A program made the translations under genes and the position numbers. Positions 7,908 to 59,941 of a stretch of DNA of 64,000 bases are shown piece by piece; the stretch's first letter is position 1, and each line of letters starts with the position of its first letter. Source of the DNA: Porphyromonas sp. COT-239 OH1446. GTDB taxonomy: Bacteria; Bacteroidota; Bacteroidia; Bacteroidales; Porphyromonadaceae. The stretch is taken from the NCBI RefSeq assembly GCF_000768875.1, contig NZ_JRAO01000010.1, forward strand, positions 188,759 through 252,758. The letters run 5' to 3'. A model generated the notes under the pieces. That model saw nothing but the letters and a program-made list of their open reading frames with translations, was not told the origin of the DNA and made no database searches.

Positions 7908-8927
7908 TTAGTGTGCGCTCTCGAATTGATCCAAAAATCGCTGATCGTTCTCCGAGAAGAGGCGTAGATCCTTGACTCGATACTTAAGATTGGTGATACG
8001 CTCGATCCCCATACCGAGAGCATAGCCACTATACTTATGACTATCGATACCACAGCTCTCGAGCACATTGGGGTCTACCATCCCACATCCTAAGATTTCG
8101 ACCCAGCCCGTATGTTTGCAGAAGTTGCACCCCTTGCCCGAGCAAATATTACACGAAATATCCATCTCTGCCGAAGGTTCTGTAAAGGGGAAGTAGGAGG
8201 GTCGCAAGCGAATGCGAGTCTTAGGGCCAAACATTTCCTGTGCGAAGTAGAGCAGCACCTGCTTGAGATCAGCGAAGGAGACATTCTGATCAATATAGAG
8301 AGCCTCCATTTGGTGGAAGAAGCAGTGGGCTCGGTACGAAATCGCCTCATTACGATACACACGACCAGGACAGATGATGCGGATCGGAGGCTCGCTCTGA
8401 CTCATCACACGAGACTGCACCGAAGAGGTGTGGGTGCGCAGCAGTGTCCCAGGAGCGTTGGCCACAAAGAAGGTATCTTGCATATCTCTGGCAGGATGAT
8501 CTTCGGCAAAGTTTAGCGAAGAGAAGACATGCCAGTCGTCTTCTATCTCAGGCCCTTCAGCTATAGAAAAGCCCAGTCGAGCAAAGATCGAGCAGATCTG
8601 CTCCTGGACAAGGGTGAGCGGATGGCGAGTGCCTAATGGTGCGGGGTAAGCCGTGCGACTCCAGTCAATCTCGGGAGTACGCTTGCTCTCCTGGCTCAAC
8701 GTCTCCCGAAGATGGTTGATACGCTCTTGGGCAACATCTTTGAGCTGATTGAGCAGAGCTCCGACCTTGCGTTTGTCCTCGTTAGGGAGCGAGCGAAACT
8801 CTTCGAACAATTGCCCCACCAACCCCTTTTTGCTGATATATTTAATGCGCAGCTCCTCTACCTCCTGCAGGGACTGACTCTTGAGCGACTCGATCTCCTC
8901 GAGTAGGGCTTTGATTTTCTCTTGCAT
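7908..8927 (-). CDS. pheS: Phenylalanine-tRNA ligase alpha subunit
   Basis: 339 residues from the ATG at 8927 (MQEKIKALLEEIESLKSQ), the usual PheS length; the frame stays open upstream to 9056, but the extra 43 residues are not PheS-like. It shows an N-terminal coiled coil (1-90), class II motif 2 (GRVYRNEAISYRAHCFFHQ), FTEPSAEMDI, and motif 3 GLGMGIERI in the form ALGMGIERITNLKY near the C-terminus. A cysteine-rich segment (CNICSGKGCNFC) is also present. PheT is not in the window. First gene of a probable pheS-nth unit. Confidence 0.95.
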   Translation of the reverse strand: MQEKIKALLEEIESLKSQSLQEVEELRIKYISKKGLVGQLFEEFRSLPNEDKRKVGALLNQLKDVAQERINHLRETLSQESKRTPEIDWSRTAYPAPLGTRHPLTLVQEQICSIFARLGFSIAEGPEIEDDWHVFSSLNFAEDHPARDMQDTFFVANAPGTLLRTHTSSVQSRVMSQSEPPIRIICPGRVYRNEAISYRAHCFFHQMEALYIDQNVSFADLKQVLLYFAQEMFGPKTRIRLRPSYFPFTEPSAEMDISCNICSGKGCNFCKHTGWVEILGCGMVDPNVLESCGIDSHKYSGYALGMGIERITNLKYRVKDLRLFSENDQRFLDQFESAH

Positions 8928-9194
8928 AGTTTGGGCGATTACCTGTAGATCGCAATCTATATTATATAGTGGTACTTCTTTCGTTTTGCTTTTAGTCCAT
9001 ACCTCCCCTACTCCCTTACTGAGCAATAAACTCGAGGTAGAGGGGGGCAAGGCCATGCAAAGTTAGCGAATTTCTACAAGGCTTCTTGCTGCCTTCACTC
9101 TTCAAATTACCCCAATGACATCGATCAAGTTACTATGACTGCCTCATACGCTCTCCATCTCAACATCAATAGACTCTCATATGAGGTGTTAGAT

Positions 9195-53280: not shown

Positions 53281-54321
53281 ATGGATGTACGCGATTATTT
53301 TTCGATGGTCTCCGACCCACGTGTTGTGGGTCGTTGCAAGCATAAGTTGAGCGATATTTTGGTTATTGCACTAGCGAGTTATTTGTGTGGAGGCGAGGAT
53401 TATGAGTCCATGTGTGGAGGCGAGGACTATGAGTCCATGCATGAACTTTGCTTAGAGCGTGGAGAATCGCTTCGCCCACTGGTTGAATTGCCTAATGGCT
53501 GTCCGAGCGTAGACACGTTCGAGAGAGTGCTCCAACGCATTGAACCTCAGTCTCTCTATGCTTGTCTTCAAGTCTATGGTAAAGAGCTGATTAGCGACTT
53601 AGAAGGTAAGCACATCGCCATTGACGGCAAACGTCTGAGAGGATCTAAGAAGAAAACAGGCAGTACACATATTCTCTCAGCTTGGGTTGATGAAGTAGGT
53701 TTAAGCCTTGCTCAAGAGACTGTTGCCGAGAAACGCAATGAGTTACAAGCCATTCCAGAGGTCTTGGATAGCCTTGATTTATCAGGGGCAGTTATTAGCA
53801 TCGATGCTATGGGGACTCAAACCAACATTGCAGAGCAGATTATCCAGTCAGAAGCTGACTACATTCTAAGCCTCAAAGGCAATCAAAAACATTTGTATGA
53901 GGACGTTCAAGATTGCTTCACAGGACAATATAGGAGTCATAGCTATGAGACCGTAGAGAAAAATCATGGTCGTATTGAGAAGAGGACTTATACGACATTA
54001 CTAGCTTCAGAGGTCTTTGACGGAGGCGAGTATGGTCAATGGCAAGGCTTGAGAAGTTTAATTCAAGTGGAGCGAGAGATTAGTAGTTTAGGGGGAGAAA
54101 ACCGAATAGATAAACAGTATTATATCAGTAGTTTACCACCTGAAGAATGTCGCTTAATAGGGCAATACATTCGAGGGCATTGGGGGATTGAGAATAGACT
54201 CCATTGGCATTTGGATGTAACCTTCAGGGAAGATGCCTGCCGTGCTCGTAAGAATTATTCAGCCACCAACCTAAACACGTTGAGAAAGTTTGCTTTAGCC
54301 ATTGTCTCTAGTTTGCTTTAG
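53281..54321 (+). CDS. ISAs1-family transposase, frameshifted near the C-terminus
   Basis: 346 residues as it stands. The DDE residues are visible: IAIDGKRLRGS, VISIDAMGTQT and DVTFREDACRARKNYS, with the N-terminal DUF4277-like/HTH region ahead. Two tandem duplications mark it. A 27-bp one (53386-53412 and 53413-53439, one silent difference) doubles CGGEDYESM in frame. An exact 23-bp one (54287-54309 and 54310-54332) shifts the frame, ending the protein at 54321. Removing one copy would restore about 28 more residues (GYKDKLSLRKRLF onward) to a TGA at 54417-54419, the expected family end. Confidence 0.88.
   Translation: MDVRDYFSMVSDPRVVGRCKHKLSDILVIALASYLCGGEDYESMCGGEDYESMHELCLERGESLRPLVELPNGCPSVDTFERVLQRIEPQSLYACLQVYGKELISDLEGKHIAIDGKRLRGSKKKTGSTHILSAWVDEVGLSLAQETVAEKRNELQAIPEVLDSLDLSGAVISIDAMGTQTNIAEQIIQSEADYILSLKGNQKHLYEDVQDCFTGQYRSHSYETVEKNHGRIEKRTYTTLLASEVFDGGEYGQWQGLRSLIQVEREISSLGGENRIDKQYYISSLPPEECRLIGQYIRGHWGIENRLHWHLDVTFREDACRARKNYSATNLNTLRKFALAIVSSLL
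53386..53439 (+). repeat. 27-bp tandem duplication inside the transposase
   Basis: Two adjacent copies starting TGTGGAGGCGAGGA, differing only by T/C at one silent position. Confidence 0.9.
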
Positions 54322-56264: not shown

Positions 56265-56472
56265 CCTTAGACCTCTATCGAGGCCCTACTTAGACCTCAA
56301 TAGAGCTCCTATTTATATCTCTATTGCGATCCTACTTGGGTCTCGGTGGAGCTCCTACTTGAGTCTCTGTTGTGATGCTATTTGGATCTCAGTTGAAGTC
56401 CTACTTAGACCTCTACTGCGATGCTAGATGGTCTCTCACTCGAGAGGCTACCGAGACTTCACCTGCGCTCCT
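56265..56472 (-). repeat. 23-base repeat array, inverted orientation (locus G)
   Basis: The longest array: units starting at 56265 (22-23 bases), 56288, 56311, 56334, 56357, 56380, 56403 (all 23), 56426 (24) and 56450 (23). Units end CCT or GCT and start ACTTAGAC, ACTTGAG or ATTTGGA. It occupies the 620-base gap upstream of the CoA-transferase start, which otherwise contains only the terminator at 56568 and no supported gene. Confidence 0.88.
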
Positions 56473-56674: not shown

Positions 56675-57448
56675 CTAGAGTAGTCGGTGCTCAGTGGCTA
56701 CGGCGATAGCCTCGGAGATATTCGCCACATCGAGCTTGACGAAGAGACTCTTGCGATAGCCCTTGACAGAGTCCTCGGACTTGTTGATCTTCACCGCTAT
56801 TTCGCTTACGGATAGACCTTGGTTCGCCAGTCGGATCACGGCCTTTTCGTATTCGCTGAGCTCGATCGTCTCGCTGAGTCGCCACCGTCCGCTGCTCGGG
56901 GTGTATTGCCAGCAGTTCTTGGAGTAGGCCTGTGTGATGTAGGCGGTATGCCGCTGACTGGTGGAGGCGAGGGAGACGATGCAGAGGGCGAGCCAAATAT
57001 TTCCCTCCTCGTCGAGCTTGAGCGGGGTGAGCCGGTGGTTGATGAGCATAAGTTCGCTCGTCCCCTCTTTGTAGAGCTGGAAATTGTAGGAGATGGTGTA
57101 GCTGCAACGCTCCTCAACAGGCTGCCTGCGGAAGAACTCGAAGCCCGCACGATTGACCGCTGTGAGAAAGGCTATATCCTCGCTCGGCACATGCTCGTAG
57201 TAGAAGGCATAGCCCTCCTGCTGCACCTCCTCGACCCTCTTGCCACAGAGGAAGAGAGGATTGTCCGAGACATAGAGGAAGTTCATCCGATGGTAGTCGA
57301 TGATGTAGAGCGACTGGTAGGTGAGCCGAGAGAGGGCGACCACTGAGTCAATATAGGGCTGTAGATCCTGGTAGGCCTCAGGGTTGACCCTCGGGCGATC
57401 CACGCTGTCGGGGTAGAGGCGTGAGGGGATGTTCGCATCAGTCTTCAT
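56675..57448 (-). CDS. PAS-like sensor plus LuxR-type DNA-binding regulator
   Basis: 257 residues. Residues 40-160 look like a PAS fold (LYIIDYHRMNFLYVSDNPLF, then SYTISYNFQLYKEG and MLINHRLTPLKLDEEGNIWL). Residues 195-255 are a LuxR/NarL helix-turn-helix (ELSEYEKAVIRLANQGLSVS, then VKINKSEDSVKGYRKSLFVK). It is a one-component regulator; the ligand is unknown. It is divergent from the TonB-dependent protein gene at 57620, with two matching palindromes between them, so it is the obvious candidate to bind there and control both genes. TATATTTG on the minus strand (57475-57482) is its likely -7 box. Confidence 0.82.
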   Translation of the reverse strand: MKTDANIPSRLYPDSVDRPRVNPEAYQDLQPYIDSVVALSRLTYQSLYIIDYHRMNFLYVSDNPLFLCGKRVEEVQQEGYAFYYEHVPSEDIAFLTAVNRAGFEFFRRQPVEERCSYTISYNFQLYKEGTSELMLINHRLTPLKLDEEGNIWLALCIVSLASTSQRHTAYITQAYSKNCWQYTPSSGRWRLSETIELSEYEKAVIRLANQGLSVSEIAVKINKSEDSVKGYRKSLFVKLDVANISEAIAVATEHRLL

Positions 57449-57501
57449 CGGGAGAATCCTTAGTGGTGATGAAGCAAATATAGTGATTGTTAGGCATCCG
57501 A

Positions 57502-57517
57502 TTACCCGGAAGGGTAA
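57502..57517. promoter_or_regulatory. Operator-like palindrome 1 (TTACCC-N4-GGGTAA)
   Basis: TTACCC, GGAA, GGGTAA: a perfect 6-bp inverted repeat. It covers the expected -33 position of the minus-strand promoter whose -7 box is at 57475-57482. Its centre is 40 bp from that of palindrome 2. Confidence 0.65.
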
Positions 57518-57541
57518 GAGTTGGCCACTTGGGAGTAGAAT

Positions 57542-57557
57542 TACCCTTTTGGGTATT
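57542..57557. promoter_or_regulatory. Operator-like palindrome 2 (TTACCC-N4-GGGTAT)
   Basis: TTACCC, TTTT, GGGTAT: one base from perfect symmetry, with the same half-sites and spacer length as palindrome 1. It touches the -33 region (TTG at 57557-57559) of the plus-strand promoter. Confidence 0.65.
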
Positions 57558-57588
57558 GCACGCCGCTTGGTGCGCCCAGTACCTTTGC
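57557..57588 (+). promoter_or_regulatory. Promoter of the TonB-dependent barrel protein gene
   Basis: TTG (57557-57559), 21 bases, then TACCTTTG (57581-57588). Transcription would start near 57594, about 26 bases before the ATG. Confidence 0.65.
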
Positions 57589-57619: not shown

Positions 57620-59941
57620 ATGAAACGAATACTTTCCCTCCCCATCCTCCTCGTTCTCCTATGCAGTACGATCGAGGCTCAAGCGCAGCAGCGTGTGCGA
57701 GGCATCGTGGTCAATCAGCACGGCGAGGGCCTCGAGTTTGTCAATGTTGTGGCCAAGAGGCTCTCCGACTCTACCTTCGTCCGAGGGGCAGTTACCGATA
57801 GCCTGGGAGCTTTTGCCTTCGAGGGCTTGCCCGAGGCCTGTTACCTCTCGCTTAGCTCTGTCGGTTATGAGCAGGCCTCCCATCCTATTTCCGAGACGAT
57901 GCGCATTACCCTTAGGGAGGCCGTCGTCGAGCTCAATAGCCTGGTCGTTAAGGCCGATCGCCCACAGATACGCCTTAGGCATGGAGCTCTCGAGATGAGC
58001 GTGCAGGGTACGACCCTGGCCTATCGCTCAGATATTATGGAGGTGCTGGGACAAGTGCCTGGACTGAGGACTTCGCTCGATGGCTCTGTCGGGCTGATCT
58101 CTGGCGGGAGGCTGATGATCTACCTCAATGGTCGGGAGGTGCATGAGGTGAGCGACCTGCGCATGATAGACATCAAGCGTATCAAGAGCCTCAGCCTAGA
58201 CAATGCCCCAGGGGCGCGCTATCCCAGCGACGTGCGGGCTGTGCTGCACATCCGCACCGAGCGAGACCTCTCGGCCCTCTCGATACGCCTGATGAGCTGG
58301 AATCGCTTGGCGCACTTCTTCTCCAGTAGAGGTGAGGCTCATTTGGCTTACAACAAGGGCAAGGCGAATTATTATGCTATGCTCTTCTATGGTCGTGCCC
58401 GCAAGCGTAACACGCAGGATCTAGAAACCCTTATCTCCGAGACAGAGGGCACGGCCCTCGAGGAGCGGCTCACGACAAACCTGGTCATCAAGCCTGGCGG
58501 CAGAGAGGTCAAGCTCATGGGCGGAGCGGACTTCTCGCCTCGATCTAACCTCAGACTGGGGGTTAAGTATGTCTTCGGTCGAGATGTAGAGCTCTCAGAG
58601 CTAAACGATTACTCCAGGTCCTACATAGGCCCTAAGCTTAACGATGAGATCCTCTCCCTGACCCAGGTCGAGGACCCCTCGGCTCTGCACCACCTCAACG
58701 CCTTCGCCTCATGGGATCTCACCCCTCGGATCAACCTCACCCTCAACGGCGACTACCTCGACAAGTGCCTTGACCGAGATCAGACCTCTAGCGAGCAGAG
58801 CCTCCTGCATCAGACGACGACCCCGATCGTGATCCACTCCAAGAGCCATCGCCGCCTCTGGCAGGGCAATGCTATCCTAGGCTATAGCTTCGAGGGTGGG
58901 CAGGCCCTCGAGCTGGGGATCGAGGCCAACGACATCACAGGCGATAGCCACCAGCTCTATGGCCTCGATCTCAAGCGAGTGAGCGACTACACCAACGACG
59001 AGCGGGTGTTTGCAGGCTTTGCCTCCTATCGCTTCGCCCTCAAGGGCTGGGACGCTCAGCTTGGGTTGCGCTACGAGCGAGCTCAGAGTGCCCTGCACAA
59101 TCGACTCGTCGGGGGGAAGGATCTTGACCGCTCTTGGGGAGACCTCTTCTATGCTGTCAAGCTCTCGGGCAAGCTGGGCAAGACCATGCACAGCCTTAGC
59201 CTCGGCTCGTCCATCCTCCGCCCAACGATGGAGCAGCTGACTAACAATACCTATCGCTCGAATCAGTACCTCATGCAGGAGGGTAACCCGAACCTCGTCC
59301 CCCAGCGTAACCATAGCTTCGGTTACAATTTGATCTTCTCAAACTATTATTTTGCAGCCAGTTATGCCTTGCATCGAGACCTCATTGCTACCCACATCCG
59401 AGCCAATAGAGAGGTCCCTAGCGGCTATATCTTCGCCCCAGCGAACTACCGACGAGCCTCCTCTCTCGAGCTCGTCGCCAACGCCCGAGAGCGTTGGGGC
59501 TGGTACAGCCTGAGTGCCACAGCGGCCTACCAGTACAACCACATTGAGGGGCTTAGGGAGGGCCTAATGCACCAAACGAAACCCCTATATTACCTGCGCC
59601 TCAATCATGGCTTCACCCTGCCCCGTGGCTACTACCTCGAGGCTGAGTACAGCTATCAGAGTGCCTCCACGATGAAGATCTACAATCTGGAGAGGCGGCA
59701 CGTGATCAATATGTATGCCAACAAGAGCTTCTTCGACGGTCGTCTACAGGTCTCGCTGCGCCTCATGGATCTCCTGCGCACCGGCGGCAGCCAGCTCTCT
59801 ACAGCCATCGGAGGGGTAGCCCTCAGGCAGAGTGAGTACAGCGACTCTCGGAGCATTCACCTCAACTTTACCTACCGCTTCAACAAGGAGCGCAAGTACC
59901 GAGGCCGAGATACTGCCTCCGAGGCCATCAATCGTTTATAG
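57620..59941 (+). CDS. TonB-dependent-receptor-like outer membrane barrel protein
   Basis: 773 residues. Signal peptide 1-22 (MKRILSLPILLVLLCSTI, ending EAQAQ). Residues 24-110 form a carboxypeptidase-regulatory-like domain (RVRGIVVNQHGEGLEFVNVV). A plug-like domain follows (MEVLGQVPGLRTSLDGSVGL, then LNGREVHEV), then a barrel of the outer-membrane-barrel-3 type ending near IHLNFTYRF with a basic tail. No TonB box is recognisable by eye. Proteins of this group import nutrients or act as sensors; the ligand is unknown. It is a single-gene unit under a promoter flanked by two palindromes. Confidence 0.87.
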   Translation: MKRILSLPILLVLLCSTIEAQAQQRVRGIVVNQHGEGLEFVNVVAKRLSDSTFVRGAVTDSLGAFAFEGLPEACYLSLSSVGYEQASHPISETMRITLREAVVELNSLVVKADRPQIRLRHGALEMSVQGTTLAYRSDIMEVLGQVPGLRTSLDGSVGLISGGRLMIYLNGREVHEVSDLRMIDIKRIKSLSLDNAPGARYPSDVRAVLHIRTERDLSALSIRLMSWNRLAHFFSSRGEAHLAYNKGKANYYAMLFYGRARKRNTQDLETLISETEGTALEERLTTNLVIKPGGREVKLMGGADFSPRSNLRLGVKYVFGRDVELSELNDYSRSYIGPKLNDEILSLTQVEDPSALHHLNAFASWDLTPRINLTLNGDYLDKCLDRDQTSSEQSLLHQTTTPIVIHSKSHRRLWQGNAILGYSFEGGQALELGIEANDITGDSHQLYGLDLKRVSDYTNDERVFAGFASYRFALKGWDAQLGLRYERAQSALHNRLVGGKDLDRSWGDLFYAVKLSGKLGKTMHSLSLGSSILRPTMEQLTNNTYRSNQYLMQEGNPNLVPQRNHSFGYNLIFSNYYFAASYALHRDLIATHIRANREVPSGYIFAPANYRRASSLELVANARERWGWYSLSATAAYQYNHIEGLREGLMHQTKPLYYLRLNHGFTLPRGYYLEAEYSYQSASTMKIYNLERRHVINMYANKSFFDGRLQVSLRLMDLLRTGGSQLSTAIGGVALRQSEYSDSRSIHLNFTYRFNKERKYRGRDTASEAINRL

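Follow-up and report, generated by a model that had tools for sequence, protein, structure and literature searches.

In the LuxR/LuxI-type AHL systems (LuxR, TraR, LasI), the lux box is located near position -42, and, to our knowledge, there is hardly any record of acyl-type quorum sensing from the Bacteroidales, one of the dominant groups of bacteria in gut, mouth and rumen. A different arrangement is found in VqmA, the quorum-sensing receptor for DPO in Vibrio cholerae and phage VP882, in which a PAS sensor is followed by a LuxR-type helix-turn-helix (HTH) in one cytoplasmic protein and which binds a palindrome with a G/C core, GG-N6-CC (PMC8284805). Makers of N-acyl-glycines of the commendamide type are described in Bacteroidales (PMC5643525), and no link between them and the regulator considered here was found. 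Here, we describe a pair of palindromes beside a PAS/LuxR-type regulator gene in Porphyromonas sp. COT-239 OH1446, which look like the target sites of an undescribed, quorum-sensing-like switch that senses a signal and of which this genome appears to hold the receptor half only.

Results

Organization of the locus

The window, i.e., the whole 64,000-nucleotide stretch of DNA that was analysed, contains a minus-strand gene for a regulator of 257 aa (56675-57448) and, divergent from it, a plus-strand gene (57620-59941) whose product was assigned by domain search to the outer-membrane beta-barrel proteins (OMP_b-brl_3 + CarboxypepD_reg) and which is the presumed target. The gap between them carries two palindromes with equal half-sites and spacers, as a preliminary description of this DNA had stated. 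Operator 1, proximal to the regulator gene, is the perfect palindrome TTACCC-GGAA-GGGTAA (57502-57517, no strand), centred at about -38 relative to the predicted start of the regulator gene and about -81 relative to that of the barrel gene. Operator 2, proximal to the barrel gene, is TTACCC-TTTT-GGGTAT (57541-57556, no strand), centred at about -42 and lying one base to the left of the position 57542-57557 given previously. The distance between the two centres is 39 bp, or 3.7 turns at 10.5 bp per turn, rather than the 40 bp, near four turns, that had been claimed, so that the two sites are not clearly on the same side of the DNA. In the genome-wide search proposed earlier, the exact motif TTACCC-N4-GGGTAW was confined to these two sites of the 1.96-Mb genome, while a pair of 6-4-6 inverted repeats sharing one half-site within 60 bp would arise by chance 0.05 times per 64-kb window.

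The surroundings of the regulator gene show two further features. Downstream of it, where relatives have a ThiF gene, lies a degenerate tandem repeat of 23/46-bp units (56266-56426; CCTACTTGGATCTCAGTAGAGCTC...), and approximately 2.3 kb from it a DDE transposase gene (53281-54321; DDE_Tnp_1 + DDE_Tnp_1_assoc) contains an internal tandem duplication, CGGEDYESM.

The regulator protein

The Pfam search identified a C-terminal GerE HTH at residues 197-251 (E 8e-10; 38.6 bits vs the curated cut-off of 23.5). The same search returned no match to PAS, to the Autoind_bind domain of the classic LuxR AHL receptors or to a NarL-type receiver domain. In the AlphaFold model (pLDDT 88.6), a PAS-type region at about 28-186 precedes the HTH, and in structure comparison this N-terminal half aligns with PAS/LOV domains. 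The best fold match was PDB 3clo (Z 16.2), followed by VqmA (Z 11.9). The match extends over both domains with either structure, the VqmA alignment covering 179 residues at an rmsd of 12.6 with a different domain orientation.

Conservation of the palindromes

Orthologues of the regulator with 60-69% identity are present in nine genomes of the same genus and family (in one case truncated by the end of a contig), and the same palindromes stand upstream of the regulator gene in these genomes, with only the regulator-side one in G020. Conservation beside orthologous pairs, on the loss of which the preliminary description was to fall, was thus found. The regulator-side site of the relatives is TTACCC-GAAA-GGGTGAAA; named carriers include P. 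macacae, P. levii, P. somerae, Bacteroides pyogenes and Prevotella-type rumen genomes. The pairs are mostly spaced 38 or 39 bp from centre to centre (range 37-39) and 49 bp in a few cases; since 49 exceeds 38 by roughly one turn, the helical phase is kept, although not as a whole number of turns.

The distribution of the motif follows that of the regulator. Of 41 genomes, six contain ATTACCC-N4-GGGTATTG, and these are precisely those that have a close regulator orthologue (6/6 with it, 0/35 without; Fisher 2e-7). A palindrome followed at 22/23 bp by a -7 box occurs in five out of 393 Bacteroidales genomes, each of which belongs to the 39 that possess a homologue of the regulator (Fisher 8e-6). 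Both p-values overstate independence because the genomes share ancestry, and one genome of the second count is contributed by G092, whose matches may be due to chance. G092 is only distantly related, has three paralogues of the regulator and shows two pattern matches, one of them in a pair not near its regulators; its perfect TTACCC-N4-GGGTAA sites (L200 7888-7940, with one pair 37 bp apart, and L201 1723) precede genes for secreted-looking proteins.

Moreover, the motif tracks the recognition helix: in the DNA examined, it accompanies 24 of 31 regulators with a YR[KR] helix, seven YR-type regulators being without it, and none of the 28 with other helices. This covariation reflects phylogeny in part, since most of the regulators lacking the motif come from other subclades; orthologues without TTACCC sites occur in Phocaeicola, Segatella and others. 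In Alloprevotella tannerae, the regulator gene (L092 8001-8734) has stop codons within the matched stretch and is probably a broken copy.

The motif also occurs away from the regulator gene. Single sites precede ThiF genes and, in both G017 and G020, a barrel gene; G020 has a further one before a small ORF. The two G020 copies are remote from the regulator gene, that of the barrel gene by 334 kb and that of the small ORF by 229 kb. These unlinked copies are the best evidence that the motif would mark a regulon and not just a locus. Taken together, co-occurrence, recognition-helix covariation and unlinked regulon members indicate that the PAS/LuxR protein is very probably the binder, as had been proposed from the single locus.

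Genes behind the palindromes in related genomes

The barrel gene is the most frequent neighbour of the regulator gene among the loci compared, and the same barrel family stands behind the operator in Prevotella, in P. levii and at the unlinked loci of G017 and G020. Around it, the relatives display a wider system that the preliminary description missed, comprising a LuxI/FeeM-fold synthase, ThiF and RiPP genes. A FeeM-type gene is divergent from the regulator gene in several relatives, and a ThiF-family gene with an operator of its own is convergent with it, likewise in several. P. macacae has regulator, FeeM and ThiF genes, and P. levii has regulator and ThiF genes. The candidate synthase gene has an operator in P. 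macacae, in a Porphyromonas MAG and in others. The P. macacae protein exceeds the Pfam gathering cut-off for PF21926 (29.7 bits vs 27), and the predicted core of the FeeM-like protein is closest to LasI (Z 15.1), TofI (Z 14.9) and FeeM (2g0b, Z 14.9), values to be read against the Z of 12-14 that general GNAT proteins also reach.

A second operator pair is contained in the FeeM-like gene itself, at its 3' end, where a predicted disordered tail (210-261) is encoded. The genes downstream of it exist in three versions: those for a double-glycine-type peptide, a radical SAM/SPASM protein, a barrel and a C39 ABC transporter; those for a DarB-like ketosynthase fragment, a barrel and ABC proteins; or that for a daptide-like membrane protease. 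The regulon of the relatives appears to include RiPP-type peptide-natural-product genes. At these internal pairs (L028 11224-11283, L029 2758-2815, L035 8625-8682), regulatory DNA shapes the protein end, being translated as LPERVK...NYPFGYC. A match of the FeeM C-terminus to intergenic DNA was considered as a sign of duplicated FeeM ends and set aside, since the palindrome pair itself forces this translation.

The FeeM-internal pairs and those before the Prevotella barrel genes have neither a divergent gene nor a reverse -7 box, so that the upstream site must serve the downstream target there. The upstream site would therefore seem to support the target of the other site, either in addition to the promoter of the regulator or in place of it.

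In the Porphyromonas sp. COT-239 OH1446 genome, no FeeM homologue and no ThiF homologue was found at the thresholds used, leaving the receptor and the barrel only, which makes the regulator a putative orphan receptor. Apparent remnants of FeeM-like genes are located beside operators in Bacteroides pyogenes G096 and in G006 (L036 about 8848-9027, L038 12784-12936), which suggests that the synthase has been lost repeatedly while receptor and operators stayed.

These data raise the question of what the receptor senses. A quite plausible answer, which we hold to fall somewhat short of probable, is that the regulator acts alone as a sensor for a ligand from the host or the environment, takes no part in quorum sensing and controls an outer-membrane transporter and, in a subset of genomes, natural-product genes; it is compatible with DNA binding and competes with an acyl signal only. 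The ligands of PAS domains are diverse, the commonest neighbour is the barrel, and no FeeM gene stands beside the regulator gene in this genome, in G017 and G020 or at the Prevotella loci. An acyl signal is not a general feature, because many motif-bearing orthologues (e.g., in Prevotella) have no FeeM gene nearby. A stand-alone sensor leaves aside, however, that the FeeM and ThiF genes have the operator themselves and that, wherever FeeM was found, it stands divergent from the regulator, the classic layout of positive feedback.

Promoter spacing

Promoters of the sigma-ABfr type have the consensus TAnnTTTG at -7 and TTTG around -33 (PMC7366714). The -7 box of the regulator gene, TATATTTG (CAAATATA as plus-strand letters; 57475-57482, minus strand), matches this consensus and lies 19 bp from operator 1, while that of the barrel gene, TACCTTTG (57580-57587, plus strand), lies 23 bp from operator 2. 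The TTTG element at -33 is absent from both promoters; it had previously been reported as missing from that of the regulator, which is borne out. Each palindrome covers or abuts the -33 region of one of the two promoters, again in line with the earlier account.

For a comparison across genera, 31 target promoters from the fetched loci, our own barrel promoter included, were aligned. The distance from the palindrome end to the -7 position is 22 bp in 29 of them and 23 bp in the other two (our own and one of G031). When offsets of 10-39 were scanned, TTTG stood in register in 28 of the 31 promoters (at 22 in 26, at 23 in two), with only two stray matches elsewhere. The bases between palindrome and -7 box vary, and this lack of conservation makes the distance look like a product of selection and not of copying together with the sequence. 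The operator centre falls at about -41, approximately where class II activators bind. The drift of both spacings by one base in this genome (39 and 23) could mean a weaker function.

Could the regulator instead be a repressor, whose occupied operators keep both promoters shut as long as no ligand frees the protein? The overlap of both sites with the -33 region would suit such a protein, as would the perfect -7 boxes of our barrel promoter and of the compared Porphyromonas-type regulator promoters, and, next to the regulator gene, a distance between palindrome and -7 that varies more (14-27 bp, with 19-20 the commonest). Repression, however, would not need a target site fixed across genera, and the target promoters mostly combine an imperfect -7 box (GAnCTTTG) with the lack of TTTG at -33, as one would expect where transcription depends on an activator. 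The nearest characterised relative, VqmA, activates vqmR (PMC8284805). We therefore regard a repressor as unlikely. Although the sites are inverted repeats present in several copies at many loci, RNA hairpins (a terminator or attenuator) or the remnant of a mobile repeat are highly improbable, given the lack of a T run, the fixed -7 distance and the unconserved surrounding bases, and the hairpin was rejected because the palindromes are upstream of the -7 boxes, outside the transcript served.

Discussion

The neighbouring PAS/LuxR regulator probably binds both palindromes and activates the barrel gene. The sites, their conservation and fixed geometry, the co-occurrence and helix covariation and the gene content are visible in the sequences themselves; from them we infer, with good support, both the DNA binding and the activation. 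The layout of an activator controlling itself and its target, as put forward in the preliminary description, holds insofar as activator-like positions precede both genes, but the assignment of one palindrome to each promoter is too simple in view of the pairs and single sites of the relatives.

In the proposed mechanism, a regulator dimer on the barrel-proximal site, near -42 and over the missing -33 element, would bring the RNA polymerase of Bacteroidota to the promoter of the barrel gene. This activation would be strengthened by another dimer on the other site, which in most relatives lies 38-39 bp upstream; standing also over the -33 region of the regulator's own promoter, this dimer may exert autoregulation of either sign. 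The PAS domain would sense a small ligand, as that of VqmA does, and in the relatives with the FeeM/ThiF pair this ligand may well be the product of the pair, in a quorum-sensing-like manner.

TcdA, an E1-like relative of ThiF, cyclises a carboxylate. As a hypothesis, an acyl signal would be made by FeeM and matured by ThiF. More broadly, we tentatively propose, as a possibility short of an even chance, a family of acyl-signal quorum-sensing systems in Bacteroidales, in which the FeeM-fold enzyme would make an N-acyl amino acid, ThiF would activate or cyclise its carboxylate to give the mature signal, and the PAS/LuxR receptor, as two dimers 38 bp apart, would switch on the synthase, ThiF, RiPP/lipid-type biosynthetic genes and the barrel, species with receptor and barrel only being eavesdroppers. 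If this is true, the species studied here is an eavesdropper or a relic. The operator rule (TTACCC-N4-GGGTAT, 22 bp, -7 box) makes the regulon listable in any genome, and it points to one receptor together with candidates for the synthase and for the maturation enzyme, all of them connected with outer-membrane barrels and peptide natural products. The open-access literature searched, mostly titles and abstracts, contained no description of this regulator/FeeM/ThiF system.

Among the known systems, PDB 3clo, a LuxR-type regulator of Bacteroides thetaiotaomicron from structural genomics, is the closest solved relative in sequence (E 1e-16) as well as in fold; it is only about 22% identical and is uncharacterised, with no known function or operator. 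The FeeM N-acyl amino acid synthases are related to the P. macacae protein, which scores above their Pfam threshold yet is a remote relative. The LuxR/LuxI systems resemble ours in that the receptor gene is divergent from a gene for a LuxI/FeeM-fold synthase in several relatives and that the palindrome is centred similarly to the lux box; they differ in that our regulator has PAS instead of an autoinducer-binding domain, its promoter is of the sigma-ABfr type, its partner is ThiF, and the synthase is missing in this genome. The VqmA proteins share the order of PAS sensor and HTH and are the best full-length solved relatives after 3clo, whereas the identity is ~16%, the palindrome of our regulator has a CCC-N4-GGG core with TTA arms and occurs as paired sites, and the regulator gene of relatives is associated with genes for ThiF and a FeeM-like acyl synthase.
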